64,000 bases of DNA from an uncultured Coriobacteriaceae bacterium (GCA_902779675.1 CACZCK010000002.1:124001-188000); one strand, 5' to 3'. Shown: positions 27,712-36,304, counted from the stretch's first letter. A program made the numbers and translations. The notes: a model not told the origin generated them from the sequence alone.

Positions 27712-27743
27712 CTACACAACATGCTCTGTTCGAGACCTCAGTC

Positions 27744-29741
<1,998 letters not shown>

Positions 29742-30797: not shown

Positions 30798-31211
30798 CTA
30801 CTCAAGCCCGTCGTAGATCTCCTGCGGCACGGGCTCGCACCACTCAGCATGGAAGCCCTCGTGAGCTTTGCTGTAGACCACGATGTGACTGAACCAGCTG
30901 TCCTTGGCCGCGCCGTGCCAGTGACGGACCTCCACCGGGATGGCAATGGCGTCGCCGGGCTTCATCTCGATGGCGTCCTTGCCCTCCTCCTGGTACCAGC
31001 CGCGGCCGCCGGTGCAGATGATGGTCTGCTCGGAGCCGTGGTGGATGTGGTAGTCGTTGATGCAGCCAGGCGCGAAGGTGACCATCTGGGTCTGCACGTC
31101 GTTGCCCGTCACCAGGGGAACGAGCCACACGTCGCCGGTGAAGTGAGGGTTGTCCAGCTTGGGGCCGATGGGCATGGGCAGTGTAGCCTGGTACTCGTCG
31201 AAGGTCTGCAT
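30798..31211 (-). CDS. Cupin-domain protein
   Basis: 137 residues from ATG 31211 with GAGAGGAA upstream. One cupin barrel is visible: motif 1 CINDYHIHHGSEQTIICTGGRG (His, His, Glu metal ligands) and motif 2 PGDAIAIPVEVRHWHGAA (His). It resembles the small cupins found with carboxymuconolactone decarboxylases. It may be an isomerase or dioxygenase-like metal enzyme; no substrate is evident. It precedes the alpha/beta hydrolase on the same strand. Confidence 0.88.
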   Translation of the reverse strand: MQTFDEYQATLPMPIGPKLDNPHFTGDVWLVPLVTGNDVQTQMVTFAPGCINDYHIHHGSEQTIICTGGRGWYQEEGKDAIEMKPGDAIAIPVEVRHWHGAAKDSWFSHIVVYSKAHEGFHAEWCEPVPQEIYDGLE

Positions 31212-31342
31212 GATGGGTTCCTCTCTCCTATGTATCAACGGGAACGAGCCTCTCTTCTAGAGAATACTGTAATACCGGCACGCCCCACCAATGCTTGCAC
31301 CTTGCGTAGCTCACGTTGCGCCTCATGCATAGTACGAGTCAC

Positions 31343-31438
31343 GGGTACACTCGAGTTCCCGCGTTTTGTCTCGATGGGCACACCTTCGCGGCAATATGTG
31401 TACCCCTCGCCGCTTTAGGCGAGAAGCCGTGTGTACCC
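31343..31438. repeat. Phased four-box inverted repeat array, copy A
   Basis: Boxes GGGTACAC (31343), GGGCACAC (31376), GTGTACCC (31398) and GTGTACCC (31431): two forward, two inverted, with starts 33, 22 and 33 bp apart. Copy B at 34831-34926 has the same boxes at exactly the same distances, plus shared GTTTTG and GCGAGA segments at equivalent places. It lies in the 31212-31804 gap upstream of the cupin gene. All spacings are multiples of 11 bp, about whole helical turns. Confidence 0.85.
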
Positions 31439-31526
31439 GTCATCTCATTGACCCTAAGCCGCTGAACAAACGCGACCCGTATCGTCTGCATCGACTCCAT
31501 CAAGCCAGGAAGACCAGGCGACCTCC

Positions 31527-31722
31527 GTACAGTAAAACGACGAATCGATGCCATAAATTTCGACTTATCAGTAAATATGGGGTGTCATACCACCCCATAG
31601 GGAGTATCGGCACCTGCAAAAGGCGAGGTAGAAGGTACCGTCTAAAAAGGGTGCTCCAGAAGCACCCTCTGAAATCACTGAAATCTTAAAAATTATGGCA
31701 TCGATTCGTGAATTTGCTGTAC
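31527..31722. mobile_element. MITE-like element with ~29-bp terminal inverted repeats
   Basis: The left end GTACAGTAAAACGACGAATC (31527 onward, continuing to GATGCCATA at 31555) and the reverse complement of 31690-31722 match at 25 of 29 positions. The 196-bp interval is AT-rich, encodes no transposase and holds two small hairpins (TGGGGTG/CACCCCA and AGGGTGCT/AGCACCCT). No clear target-site duplication is seen. It may be a miniature element or an IS relic; the rest of the gap is featureless. Confidence 0.65.
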
Positions 31723-31804
31723 GACACTGAATGGTCGTGGTTGAGCGAAGACCGGCAACGCGGCCTCCGCTCAACCAAGAAGAAGGATGCCCAAGCCGTA
31801 CGGC

Positions 31805-33157
31805 CTACGCCCTGCGCTGACGTCCCAGCCAGCGCATGAGAGTCACGGGGCGCCCGTCGCACATCACACGGCTACCATCGAGGTCAAAAGCCACATCGTC
31901 GTTCAAGGCATGAACCCACGAGAAGTGCGGGATGTAGGTCCAAGGCCTCCCCTGCTCGTCCTTGAAGAGACCGCTTTGGTCCTCGATCTTCTCGAAGAGC
32001 GTCATGTGCACGTTGTCGTTGCCGGCCGCGCGCAGGCGGTTATAGAGCGGCAGTGGCGCGCTCTCGGGAGGCACCAGCGGGTCGTTCTCGGCCTGCACGA
32101 ACCAGATGGGCAGATGGCGCAGGTTGGCAATGTCGCGCTCGGAGACGCCGCTGTTACGATACGCCTCGCAGACCGGGAAGGCCGCGGCAAAGTAGTCGGG
32201 GTACGTGAGGATCATCTTCACCGTCATGAAGCCGCCATTGGAGCAGCCGCCCAGGTAGATGCGGTCGCGGTCGATGTCGGGGTGCTCCTTCACAAACTCG
32301 TCGATGCAGGCCTTGAGCGCCTCGGTGTAGCGGCTGTTGCAGTCGGTGAGGTTCTCGTGCGCCTGGGGGTTCTTTGCACCATTGTCCAGCCAGAACGTGG
32401 GCGCCTGCGGCGCCAGCACGTAGGCCGCCCCGCCCAGACGACGCTGGATCTCGGGCGTGGAGAGCGCCGAGACCTTGTTGCCCGTGTAGGCCACCTTGGG
32501 GTCGCTGCCACCCTCGCCGGCACCATGCAGCCAGATGACCAGCGGCAGCTTCTCGGGGAAGGCGTGCGCCCACTCGTCTCCATAGTGGCCGTCGTAGCGC
32601 CGGTGGAACGCACGGGCCGCCTCGAGGTCTGGCGTAAAGAAGCCGTAGCGCAGTGGCTGCGGCGCATAGTGCGAGACGCCGTGCGCCCAGCCCGCAAGCT
32701 GCGGGCACAGGTCGCCGGCGCGCTCGTCAAACACCAGTCCTGCCAGCGGCACCTCGTCGGGAATCTCGGCCACCTGCGTCACGCGGTAGCGGCACTCCAC
32801 AAACTCGTTCATGTTGTCGTTTTGCAGCGGGGCCTGCGCCTGGCCCAAGGGATGGATGGGGCCGTAGGGCATCTCGAGCGCCACGTGGGTACTCGCGTGC
32901 TGACGTCTGCCCTGCTCGTCGCAGGGATAGGCCGCCGTCACGGGACGGTAGCCGCGCGAGGGATAGATCTTGGGGCCACGCCACACGCGCGACGTCATGA
33001 AGACCTCGCCCGTGTAGTTGTCGATGCGCTCCACGTAGACCGAGAAGGTGTCCGTACCCACCTGCTCGGCGCGCACCTCCTGCGGCATGTCCAGGATGAG
33101 CTTGGCAATGTAGGGCCCGTTGTCGGTGCACTCGGTAAACGTACGGTAGCTCAGCAT
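31805..33157 (-). CDS. Prolyl-oligopeptidase/PHB-depolymerase-like esterase
   Basis: 450 residues. An N-terminal beta domain (about 1-170) precedes an alpha/beta-hydrolase domain: LPLVIWLHGAGEGGSD (oxyanion), GGCSNGGFMT (nucleophile Ser about 310), WFVQAENDPLVPPES (Asp) and a final His in IPHFSWVHAL. The layout matches COG4099-type predicted peptidases/feruloyl esterases. No signal peptide is seen. GAGGGGG precedes the ATG. The substrate is probably an ester of plant or dietary origin; that is inference. Confidence 0.85.
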   Translation of the reverse strand: MLSYRTFTECTDNGPYIAKLILDMPQEVRAEQVGTDTFSVYVERIDNYTGEVFMTSRVWRGPKIYPSRGYRPVTAAYPCDEQGRRQHASTHVALEMPYGPIHPLGQAQAPLQNDNMNEFVECRYRVTQVAEIPDEVPLAGLVFDERAGDLCPQLAGWAHGVSHYAPQPLRYGFFTPDLEAARAFHRRYDGHYGDEWAHAFPEKLPLVIWLHGAGEGGSDPKVAYTGNKVSALSTPEIQRRLGGAAYVLAPQAPTFWLDNGAKNPQAHENLTDCNSRYTEALKACIDEFVKEHPDIDRDRIYLGGCSNGGFMTVKMILTYPDYFAAAFPVCEAYRNSGVSERDIANLRHLPIWFVQAENDPLVPPESAPLPLYNRLRAAGNDNVHMTLFEKIEDQSGLFKDEQGRPWTYIPHFSWVHALNDDVAFDLDGSRVMCDGRPVTLMRWLGRQRRA

Positions 33158-33183
33158 GGTGTCCCCCTCAATGGCACGGTCTC

Positions 33184-33729
33184 TTAGCTGATGGGCGAAA
33201 ACGTGACGGTCGAGGTCCCCGACCCGCAGGCATCGGCGAGGCCCGTCGGGTCATCGACCTTTCCCACGCGCGCGTAGCTCCAACCACCGTTGGAGAAGGT
33301 CTCGTAGAAGAGCACGAGGCAGTCTGAGCCAAACACCATGAGGTCGCCCGCCTCAATCGTGTCGGGCACGTACGTTTCGCCACCAAAGGATTCGCCCGTG
33401 TAGCAGTACTTCTCGTTGCCGTGCAACTCCTCCATCGAGAGCGTGAGGGGCAGCCGCGCGAGCAGCTCCTGACCCGCAGCGGTGTCCTCGATGGTTGCCG
33501 TGAACGGCGTGTCATTGACTAAAACCTGAATCTGCATGGGTGTTTCCTCCTTGCCCGTGGTGTCTGGCTCGGTTGGCTGTGCGTTGTCGCGCTCTTGGCC
33601 ATCCTCGCGTGGCTCTGACACCGTACCCGATTCTGCCATTTGTTCTGACGTTGAGCAGCCCGCAAGACCGAACGAGAGCAGTGCACCTATGCCGTGCAAA
33701 AACGCACGACGCCCCAGCAGGGCGCTCAC
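33184..33729 (-). CDS. Cyclophilin-like-fold lipoprotein
   Basis: 181 residues. The leader has an arginine pair and lipobox (GRRAFLHGIGALLSFGLAGC, Cys25), then a Ser/Glu-rich linker and, from about residue 65, a cyclophilin-like domain (IQVLVNDTPFTATI, LLARLPLTLSMEEL, EAGDLMVFGSDCLVLFY, SYARVGKV). Its ATG overlaps the TGA of the flavodoxin-cyclophilin fusion by 4 bp, so the two are translationally coupled. The same domain recurs in the fusion's C-terminus. The function of this domain family is not established. Confidence 0.82.
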   Translation of the reverse strand: MSALLGRRAFLHGIGALLSFGLAGCSTSEQMAESGTVSEPREDGQERDNAQPTEPDTTGKEETPMQIQVLVNDTPFTATIEDTAAGQELLARLPLTLSMEELHGNEKYCYTGESFGGETYVPDTIEAGDLMVFGSDCLVLFYETFSNGGWSYARVGKVDDPTGLADACGSGTSTVTFSPIS

Positions 33730-34661
33730 GCCAATGCTCCGGCGCCTGCAGGCGCAACCCCGCCGACATACGGCTCCTCGAGGCTGAGCTCGATCGTCAC
33801 TTGCGGAGGCAGAGCCCGAATCTGCGCGTTCGCCTCGTCATCCAGATGGGCCACCACCATCACCCGGTAGCCCCGCGACTGGTCCTGCCCGCTGTGGAGC
33901 AGCGCAAACCATCCGTCTGCCACGCTCACGTCTCCGTCGATCCAGCCTTGCTGCTTCTCCGCCTCGTCGAAGGCACCTTCCTTCAGCTCGCAGCAGTAGT
34001 CGACGCCCGAGTCGGTGCCGCTCACCGTGAGCGGCAGGCGGTTCATGAGGTCGCGCGCGGCCTGCGTCTGGTTGAGCGGCGCCCGCACCTCGACGTCGCC
34101 CGCGCGGATGATGAGGTTGGCCACATTCCGCTCATCGGGATCCGCAAGCGCAGCACCGGCCGCACGCAGACGCTCGAGCAGCTCGGGAGCCTTGTTTTCG
34201 TCGCCAGCCGCAACAAAGACGCCCATGTCCTCAAGATGCAGCCACTCCAGGAAGGAGTGCTGATAGGTGTAGAGCGCCCCGCCATACACGTTGGGGCTCC
34301 CCGAGCTCAGCAGCAGCGCGGCCTTGCGCAGGCGGCGCGGATAGCCGGGAGCATAGATGCGATCGATGGCGCACTTGAGCTGCCCCGAAAGGCCGTGGTA
34401 GTACACGGGTGAGGCAAGCACGATCATGTCTGCCTCGTCAAGCACGGGATAGACCTGCTGCATGTCGTCCTTCTGGACGCAGGTGCGCGGGTCTTTGGCG
34501 TGGCAGTGCTCGCAGGCGAGGCAGCCCGCGATGCGCATACGGCACACGTCAAAGACGGTCACCTGGTGGCCCGCCTGTACTGCACCTTCTTGGTAGGCAG
34601 CAACCATGGCGGCTGTATTGCCATGGGGTCGAGGGCTCCCGTTGAGAATGACGATGTTCAT
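33726..34661 (-). CDS. NADPH-dependent FMN reductase-like protein fused to a cyclophilin-like domain
   Basis: 311 residues. Residues 1-180 are a flavodoxin-fold iron-sulfur flavoprotein/FMN reductase (MNIVILNGSPRPHGNTAAMV FMN loop, AGCLACEHCHAKDPRTC Cys cluster, ASPVYYHGLSGQLKCAIDR). Residues about 190-300 are a cyclophilin-like domain (VEVRAPLNQTQAARDLMNRL, DVSVADGWFALLHSG) homologous to the next gene. The Cys pattern could hold an FeS cluster. It is cytosolic, unlike its coupled lipoprotein partner. A redox role on small substrates is likely. Confidence 0.87.
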   Translation of the reverse strand: MNIVILNGSPRPHGNTAAMVAAYQEGAVQAGHQVTVFDVCRMRIAGCLACEHCHAKDPRTCVQKDDMQQVYPVLDEADMIVLASPVYYHGLSGQLKCAIDRIYAPGYPRRLRKAALLLSSGSPNVYGGALYTYQHSFLEWLHLEDMGVFVAAGDENKAPELLERLRAAGAALADPDERNVANLIIRAGDVEVRAPLNQTQAARDLMNRLPLTVSGTDSGVDYCCELKEGAFDEAEKQQGWIDGDVSVADGWFALLHSGQDQSRGYRVMVVAHLDDEANAQIRALPPQVTIELSLEEPYVGGVAPAGAGALA

Positions 34662-34830
34662 TGGCTTGACTCCCTTGCCAGAGGTTTGGCTACAGCTTCA
34701 TTGTCAGCTCCCAGCAGAACGACAACAAATACCTATCTTCTTTTGCTTGTCATAGAGAGCATGCATCGGTGAGGTGGGGTCTTGCCAAAGGGACCACGAC
34801 CTTGATGACGGCGCAGGTAGATGCTTCGAT

Positions 34831-34926
34831 GAGTACACTTGAGGTCTCTTGTTTTGCACCGACGGGTACACTTTCGACTCTCTTTGTGTACCCGTCATCG
34901 CATATCGCGAGATGCCATGTGTACCC
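34831..34926. repeat. Phased four-box inverted repeat array, copy B
   Basis: Boxes GAGTACAC (34831), GGGTACAC (34864), GTGTACCC (34886) and GTGTACCC (34919), with the same 33/22/33 spacing as copy A. It sits in the 34662-35030 divergent gap between the FMN reductase fusion and the HAD gene, so it could act on either promoter. Apart from the hairpin that follows, I see nothing else in this gap. Confidence 0.85.
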
Positions 34927-34935
34927 ATTGCGCGT

Positions 34936-34964
34936 GACTCAAAGGGGATACTCCCCTTTGAGTC
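34936..34964. terminator. Hairpin next to array B
   Basis: GACTCAAAGGGG (34936-34947) and CCCCTTTGAGTC (34953-34964), perfect 12-bp arms with a 5-nt loop, followed by ATAAAA. It lies 67 bp before the HAD gene and could be an attenuator or upstream terminator. Confidence 0.6.
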
Positions 34965-35030
34965 ATAAAAGAACGTACAATCGCCTATCATGGACGGGCA
35001 GCGGTACTCACGCAGACAAGGACCAATCCC

Positions 35031-36224
35031 ATGTCAGACACCCAAAGCACCAGCAAGCAGAAACCGCTGTCGCTGCTCGTTGCCTTCGCGCTGGGCGTGG
35101 CGCTCGCGGCCATCGTCTTTGCTGCGTGGCCCAATGCCAACGGAGCCACACAGCCCACGAACGCGCCCGCACAGGAACAGGCCGCCGCAGGTCAGGAGGC
35201 CGCGACGGCACAGAGCGATCCCCTCGACATCGCGGCAACCTTCCCCTCGTGGGACCCGGACAGCGCCTCGCTCGCCGAGCTCGTCGCCTTCGTGCAGGAC
35301 GTGACCGACCCCGCCAGCCCCAACTACCGCGAGCCGGCCGAGCGCATCGCCACCTTCGACATGGACGGCACCCTCATCTGCGAGAAGGCGCCCATCTATG
35401 TCGACCACATGCTGCTCCTGCACCGCGTGCTGGACGACCCCAGCTACAAGGCCGCGCCCGATGTTGTCAAGCTCTGCCAGGGTATCCGCGAGTATGCCCT
35501 GCGCGGCGAGAGGAACAGCGAGTTCGAACTCGGCGAGAGCGTCGCCATCGCCCACGAGTTTGTGGGCATGACCCCCGACGAGTTCCGTGCCTATGTGGCC
35601 GACTTCCTGGCAAACGAACCCGTCATCGGCTTCGACGGGATGACCTACGGCCAGAGCTTCTACAAGCCCATGCTCGAGGTGCTCGACTACCTGTGCGCCA
35701 ACGACTTTGACATCTGGATGGTCTCGGCCTGCGAGCGCGAGGTGGTGCGTGCAGCCATGGCGCCCTTCGGCATTGCGCCTGACCACGTGATCGCCACCGA
35801 CGTGGTCTACACCACCACCAACCAGGGCGACGCGGTCAACGACGACTACACCATGGAGCAGGACGAGCAGGTGGTGCTCGGCGAGCCGCTCGACGAGGTC
35901 GAGTGCGGCAAGAACGGCAAGGTGCTGGCCATTGCCCGCGAGATCGGCCGCCGCCCGCTGCTTGCCTTTGGCAACAGTTCGGGCGACTACGCCATGCTCA
36001 ACTACGCCGAGACGTCCGGCGGCATGGGGCTGCTCGTGGTGGCCGACGACCTGGAGCGCGAGTACGGCAACGCGGAGAAGTCCACCGAGCAATACGAGCT
36101 GGTGGGTAAGGAGTCCTGGACCGCCTTCTCGATGGCAGACGACTGGGCCACCATCTACGGCGAGGGCGTGGTCAAGACCGAACTCCCAGGCCTCGCCGAG
36201 GAGGATCTGGCAGAGGCCGCATAA
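35031..36224 (+). CDS. Membrane-anchored HAD-family phosphatase
   Basis: 397 residues. A basic N-terminus and one hydrophobic helix (about 14-33, LLVAFALGVALAAIVFAAW) form an anchor or uncleaved signal, followed by an Ala/Gln/Pro-rich linker (35-65). The HAD motifs are ATFDMDGTL (motif I), WMVSACE (motif II Ser) and PLLAFGNSSGDYAML (motif IV). The phosphatase domain would therefore sit outside the membrane. Its layout recalls phosphoserine-phosphatase-like extracellular enzymes. AAGGA precedes the ATG. The substrate is unknown. Confidence 0.85.
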   Translation: MSDTQSTSKQKPLSLLVAFALGVALAAIVFAAWPNANGATQPTNAPAQEQAAAGQEAATAQSDPLDIAATFPSWDPDSASLAELVAFVQDVTDPASPNYREPAERIATFDMDGTLICEKAPIYVDHMLLLHRVLDDPSYKAAPDVVKLCQGIREYALRGERNSEFELGESVAIAHEFVGMTPDEFRAYVADFLANEPVIGFDGMTYGQSFYKPMLEVLDYLCANDFDIWMVSACEREVVRAAMAPFGIAPDHVIATDVVYTTTNQGDAVNDDYTMEQDEQVVLGEPLDEVECGKNGKVLAIAREIGRRPLLAFGNSSGDYAMLNYAETSGGMGLLVVADDLEREYGNAEKSTEQYELVGKESWTAFSMADDWATIYGEGVVKTELPGLAEEDLAEAA

Positions 36225-36252
36225 GCTGCAGGGCCACAAACGATAGAGAAAG

Positions 36253-36282
36253 CGGCCCCAGCGCCTTCTGGCGCTGGGGCCG
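36253..36282. terminator. Terminator between convergent HAD and hydrolase genes
   Basis: CGGCCCCAGCGCC (36253-36265) and GGCGCTGGGGCCG (36270-36282), perfect 13-bp arms with TTCT loop. Confidence 0.85.
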
Positions 36283-36304
36283 ACCCGTCTCTGCGTCTCA
36301 GTTG

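Follow-up and report, generated by a model that had tools for sequence, protein, structure and literature searches.

Dispersed palindromic box arrays in a Coriobacteriaceae genome and similar repeats flanking genes of a nuclease-like family

Box arrays in the window and their copies in this and related genomes

The stretch of DNA analysed here, hereafter the window, comprises 64,000 nucleotides (C2:124001-188000) of the genome of an uncultured Coriobacteriaceae bacterium, a 2.9 Mb draft of 45 contigs. Two intergenic regions of the window each hold an array of four 8-bp boxes, two forward and two inverted (arrays A and B, Table 1). Array A is located upstream of a cupin gene, and array B between two divergent genes for a flavodoxin-like protein and a HAD phosphatase. 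Six boxes match GGGTACAC/GTGTACCC exactly, while the remaining two, namely the second box of A (GGGCACAC) and the first box of B (GAGTACAC), are one-base variants. The six exact boxes compare with a mean of 1.29 in shuffled versions of the window, and none of 100 shuffles reached this number. The box positions and the 33/22/33 bp spacing of the original prediction were found exactly as given, and the intergenic location of both arrays was likewise borne out. Arrays of this kind are dispersed in the genome, and palindromic repeats of the same kind flank genes of a nuclease-like family that is here referred to as T.

A scan of the genome for the full four-box pattern, allowing up to 3 mismatches and requiring the exact 33/22/33 spacing, identified nine places, as opposed to none in a reversed control. 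A sequence-only profile built from these nine copies and one copy from the related genome G015 detected 11 full copies and one partial copy. The profile thereby added the full copies C27:15383 and C3:234696 and the partial array C22:32853; extra half-units are present beside C5:31108 and C3:173546. Array A was matched by this profile as G000:C2:155340-155442 on the minus strand (87 bits, E 1.4e-24) and array B with 84 bits (E 1.4e-23), each of these copies being itself included in the model. The exact three-box pattern gave no match in GTDB contigs, a search that may leave out near records. A and B are not the result of one recent duplication, and the conserved phase with diverged filler that had been noticed in these two arrays is real and genome-wide.

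All 12 loci in the source genome are intergenic, and they are found in convergent, divergent and tandem contexts next to genes of unrelated function. Four of them lie at most ~225 bp from a gene for a tRNA or the RNase P RNA (L055 9551-9710, L057 8858-8945, L187 4697-4796 and L060 9737-9832). A constant placement relative to the promoters of a coherent gene set was not seen among these copies, whose orientations are mixed and whose neighbours are unrelated. The presence of copies in all orientations beside unrelated genes therefore indicates a dispersed element rather than a regulon.

The element measures ~96 bp (~100 bp) and consists of an outer box, 25 bp, an inner box, 14 bp, an inverted inner box, 25 bp and an inverted outer box. 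The 25-bp filler is not random, as it includes TCTCG and CGA(C/T), plus GCGTTTTG or its complement in most arms. Directly after the outer box, one arm often starts with ATGGC or ACGGC and the other with TCG; because the two arms begin differently, most elements can be assigned an orientation. For element A this orientation is minus, because its A-type arm is on the right side. No conserved GTAG/CGTC tetranucleotide was found outside the outer boxes in an alignment of ten copies. A coding repeat on the minus strand, which had been proposed as an alternative to a bound array, was rejected, because the 22-bp step cannot be divided by 3 and because indels break the frame: box distances are 33/21/32 in the C27 copy and 31 bp between some of the extra units.

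Among the 17 congeneric genomes that were compared, the GGGTACAC form is present only in G015, with one copy. The same architecture was recognised by the profile in G003 (E 6.4e-12), G005 (E 7e-10), G007 (E 8e-5) and G016 (E 0.009), so that it is found in a total of five congeneric species, usually with a box sequence of their own. The boxes are CGTGTACAC in G003, GTGTACAT/GTGTACAC in G016 and GGGYACAA in G007, and those of G005 are TGGCACA (outer) and GGGTACA (inner). Across species, the distances between boxes vary by no more than ~2 bp, and the middle spacer has a length of 13-15 bp, its sequence being different. Weak profile matches with E 0.05-0.08, obtained for G006 and G012, were regarded as noise.

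Two loci allow a comparison of individual copies. In G015, a single GGGTACAC element separates trkA from an adenosine-deaminase-like gene (L061), whereas the source genome carries two elements at this trk locus, on contig C5, with a 163-aa zinc-ribbon-like gene between them (L056 9240-10209). Each half of the latter locus aligns to the single G015 copy, and G001 and G005 have only ~10 bp at this position. At the tRNA-Val locus, the partial copy C22 and a copy from G003 are both located upstream of the same gene. Elements near tRNAs were likewise observed in G003 (L177) and G005 (L180, L183).

Repeats flanking genes of the T family

The 374-aa T gene of G016 lies between two near-identical elements (94% over 144 bp), and its 381-aa homologue in G003, 53% identical to it, likewise lies between two elements (97% over 87 bp). 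Searches that started from the sandwiched gene and went on to an alignment of 21 members returned ~140 matches in 18 genomes. Pfam, NCBIfam and PADLOC contain no model for the T family itself. A few of its members weakly match Pfam MTES_1575 (E 1.9e-5) and DUF559 (E 2.9e-4), and the T profile weakly matches PDB 3r3p, the mobile intron protein I-Bth0305I (E 0.0074). The near-invariant T residues (SPxE, N, D, EY, D and R) look like a PD-(D/E)XK/EDxHD-type core. The additional N-terminal region of ~200 residues has no match. PF01797, the domain of Y1 tyrosine transposases of the IS200/IS605 type, was not matched by any of 21 T proteins searched against Pfam, for which only MTES_1575, DUF559 and one spurious match were obtained. 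No match to the T protein was found in plasmids, phages and viral contigs. With a T gene of the source genome as query, GTDB returned 5 metagenome-assembled genomes (MAGs) of the Atopobiaceae, Coriobacteriaceae and Coriobacteriales, and the closest named records are MAGs of the Atopobiaceae and Coriobacteriaceae, among them one from the ileum of water deer (88% protein identity). The window therefore most probably derives from an Atopobiaceae-type gut bacterium. The T gene on contig C7 of the source genome is found at the same locus in several relatives, which indicates that in this case the gene was inherited in place.

The association of T genes with repeats was assessed for 71 distinct T genes of which both 700-bp flanks were readable, with 101 genes for proteins of 250-500 aa from the same genomes as controls. 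At E<1e-4, matching repeats were present in both flanks of 40 of the 71 T genes, as compared to 1 of the 101 controls (Fisher p-value of 1.7e-18); at E<1e-8, these numbers were 31 and 0, respectively (Fisher p-value of 9e-15). When loci were fetched without regard to repeats, 16 of 33 were positive. The T-linked repeats are palindromic, mostly 70-300 bp long, and differ between T lineages. A repeat similarity above 35 bits was observed for 13 of 33 pairs (39%) of T proteins that are more than 45% identical, but for none of the 562 other pairs. The T-linked repeats of the source genome are themselves dispersed, in that 7 of 8 have further copies in this genome, up to seven each. The 198-bp element at 31526-31723, close to array A (Table 1), is one of these. 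One copy of the C14-family repeat adjoins the GGGTACAC copy on contig C1, and a C2b-family copy lies near the C27 copy.

The T-linked repeats also share a core motif with the arrays in the window. Among 7-mers, the strongest enrichment in the 35 paired T-linked repeats is that of GCAAAAC (11 loci versus 1.6 expected); CCGCAGG occurs in 8 of the 35 (0.7 expected), and AACCGCA is enriched as well. The filler motif GCGTTTTG is the complement of CAAAACGC, the core common to the nuclease-linked repeats, and the GGGTACAC arms contain CGCAAAACGCGAGAG. Thus, the element in the window bears the signature of T-linked repeats despite the absence of an adjoining T gene.

Several observations speak against the explanation favoured below. 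About 31 of the 71 T genes have no paired repeat at the cut-off, and a global Mantel test of protein versus repeat similarity was not significant (rho 0.06, p-value of 0.21). No T gene is located beside any GGGTACAC copy in the source genome or in G015, and the same is true for the copies in G005 and G007. The link of this repeat to T therefore rests on G003, G016 and the shared core. In addition, the structure predicted for T from a 4-row alignment is poor (pLDDT 38), so that the fold of T is not established, and the loci compared offered no insertion event that could be set against a clean empty site.

Surroundings of arrays A and B

The features in and around the two arrays are listed in Table 1.

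Table 1. Positions of the arrays, their core motifs and neighbouring features in the window
Feature	Position	Strand	Remarks
Array/element A	31343..31438	-	Four 8-bp boxes: 31343 (forward), 31376 (forward), 31398 (inverted), 31431 (inverted); spacing 33/22/33 bp
Array/element B	34831..34926	-	Boxes: 34831 (forward), 34864 (forward), 34886 (inverted), 34919 (inverted); spacing 33/22/33 bp
Core motif GCGTTTTG in left arm of A	31361..31368	+	From sequence and motif enrichment
Core motif GTTTTGC in left arm of B	34851..34857	+	From sequence
Second palindromic dispersed element, same kind	31526..31723	.	198 bp; 88 bp from A; inverted ends CGTACAG...CTGTACG
Cupin-like gene (context, outside element)	30798..31238	-	5' end ~105 bp from A
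Flavodoxin-like gene (context)	33726..34661	-	5' end 170 bp from B
HAD-phosphatase-like gene (context)	35031..36224	+	Start 105 bp from B

The second element listed has related copies on contigs C6, C7, C25, C21, C34, C12 and C37, and the C37 copy is located directly upstream of a T family gene. No target-site duplication was seen in this element family, of which both ends are visible.

Together with element B, the HAD-phosphatase gene occupies the interval 34662-36304 of the window, between two genes that are adjacent, at a distance of 14-22 bp, in G002, G015 and G016; the flavodoxin gene of G003 has the HAD gene on its opposite side. Integron-like cassette sites, an idea prompted by the trk locus, were considered and rejected as a general rule: array A has no cargo relative to G002 and G014, the HAD gene next to B has a different position in relatives, and the empty sites are not clean. 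Elsewhere in the window, positions 27721-27924 between an aldo/keto reductase and a beta-glucosidase-like gene hold a short intergenic tandem repeat, which shows up as repeated peptide blocks among the open reading frames.

Explanations and comparison with known systems

The explanation that we favour, with a probability of roughly 0.55, is that the arrays are dispersed non-coding palindromes of a type that flanks T genes, and that together they represent a system similar to that of repetitive extragenic palindromic (REP) elements and REP-associated tyrosine transposase (RAYT) genes, built on a different nuclease. The strongest competitor, which we nonetheless regard as unlikely, would be an array of operator or nucleoid-protein sites, where the boxes bind a chromosomal protein that regulates the neighbouring genes or organises the chromosome, and where T genes merely happen to be located between two such sites. 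The helical phasing, the constant spacing across species despite diverged filler and the positions of A and B near gene starts would all be compatible with this view. It would also agree with the pairing of the arms in the GGGTACAC family, which is no better within copies (15.4 of 25 pairs) than between copies (16.1 of 25 pairs; p-value of 0.95). This lack of covariation indicates that what is conserved is a palindromic consensus rather than a hairpin, and it is more in line with a protein-bound array of double-stranded DNA. To this extent the bound array of the original prediction is partly supported, but the array is a dispersed repeat of a kind that flanks nuclease-like genes in relatives and not an operator of the neighbouring genes. 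The copies are found in divergent, tandem and convergent contexts beside unrelated genes, tRNAs and the RNase P RNA, they are absent or located elsewhere in relatives, and their box sequence varies by species. Moreover, an operator array would leave unexplained why matched flanks are frequent among T genes (40 of 71) and all but absent among the controls (1 of 101).

It is even less probable that the elements are miniature inverted-repeat transposable elements (MITEs) of an ordinary DDE transposon, with the 41-bp arms as terminal repeats that are bound by the transposase and T as a passenger. Inverted arms with repeated binding boxes and dispersed intergenic copies are what such an element would display, and 3-bp direct repeats do adjoin three of the ~10 GGGTACAC copies, namely those on C1 (GAC), C5c (GTC) and C27 (TAC). 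However, the other copies have no target duplication, and the same applies to the second element family. The profile search of the draft genome returned only arrays and half-arrays and no transposase with these ends, and the genes at distances of up to 2.6 kb from the copies are unrelated. Furthermore, the length of the centre is kept (13-15 bp between the inner boxes) while its sequence varies by species, which a MITE would not need. The weakest alternative, an RNA or single-stranded DNA hairpin such as a terminator, an attC-like site or a single-strand REP-type hairpin, could draw on folding z-scores of -5 to -8 for the GGGTACAC copies and -12 for the G016 copy, and on the compensatory arms of the C8 repeat family (34.0 of 40 pairs within versus 31.1 between copies, permutation p-value of 0.0006; L271 928-1029, copies L357-L362), but it is improbable overall and already weakened for the GGGTACAC family, whose arms do not covary and where Rfam matched only tRNA and RNase P. 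The C8 and GGGTACAC types of repeat may be recognised in different forms.

In the favoured explanation, each T lineage has its own repeat, of which single copies spread into intergenic DNA, while the T genes themselves stay in place in the one case checked. The T protein, or its ancestor, may bind the box array as double-stranded DNA, the bound unit presumably being two boxes and the GCAAAAC core of each arm, in phase on the helix. By nicking or cutting at the element, T might then cause the element to be copied to other intergenic sites; such a T-driven mobilisation is suggested by analogy with RAYT genes. The box sequence and the T protein would be expected to change together, which would explain why the boxes are species-specific and their spacing is constant. 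In the genome studied here, the T gene of the GGGTACAC family appears to have been lost.

More tentatively, the T genes and their repeats could represent a class of bacterial genome parasites or domesticated replicators. This would be a large family of Vsr-like nucleases of the Coriobacteriia, each member with its own flanking and intergenically spreading palindromic box array, where nuclease specificity and repeat co-evolve, and thus an independent, non-HUH counterpart of REP/RAYT. The open-access literature, to which our search was confined and which leaves aside subscription papers, held no description of the T family or of this arrangement, although this is no proof of novelty. For dispersed palindromes of bacteria with ties to a nuclease gene, REP elements and RAYT nucleases serve as the textbook example, and there is still debate on how these elements spread. 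Were a second nuclease family, unrelated to the first, organised along the same genomic lines, this would show that the arrangement evolved more than once. It would also provide naturally diversified pairs of nuclease and target (~140 matches in one genus), with target recognition being readable from the flanking DNA, and it would account for a large part of the repetitive sequence between the genes of these gut bacteria.

RAYT genes are flanked by two REPs, and dispersed REP copies are present in the same genome (PMC2817692). The T system resembles REP/RAYT (PMC2817692, PMC3116915) in that a nuclease-type gene lies between two palindromic repeats, copies of which are scattered over intergenic regions of the same genome, in that the repeat sequence is specific to the gene lineage, and in that the gene is apparently inherited in place, as seen in the one case checked here. 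On the other hand, RAYT is a Y1/IS200 transposase, whereas T weakly matches Vsr/EDxHD-like nucleases; REPs are hairpins of 20-40 bp with a GTAG/CGTC head, whereas the T repeats are 70-300 bp long with box arrays. Moreover, a T repeat has ~1-8 dispersed copies, as compared to tens to hundreds for REP, and there are many T genes per genome. Lacking both a tyrosine transposase domain and the GTAG/CGTC head, the T system is therefore not a member of REP/RAYT. With EDxHD homing endonucleases (I-Bth0305I, PDB 3r3p) and with Vsr, DUF559 and MTES_1575, T shares a weak but consistent similarity of the nuclease core. Unlike homing endonuclease genes, however, T genes have no intron and do not split their site, and whole repeats are found on both sides. 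Lastly, bacterial MITEs and the ERIC and RU repeats (PMC2759123) are likewise palindromic, intergenic and dispersed elements of ~100 bp, but the T repeats differ from these in being linked to nuclease-like genes and in having no clear target-site duplications.

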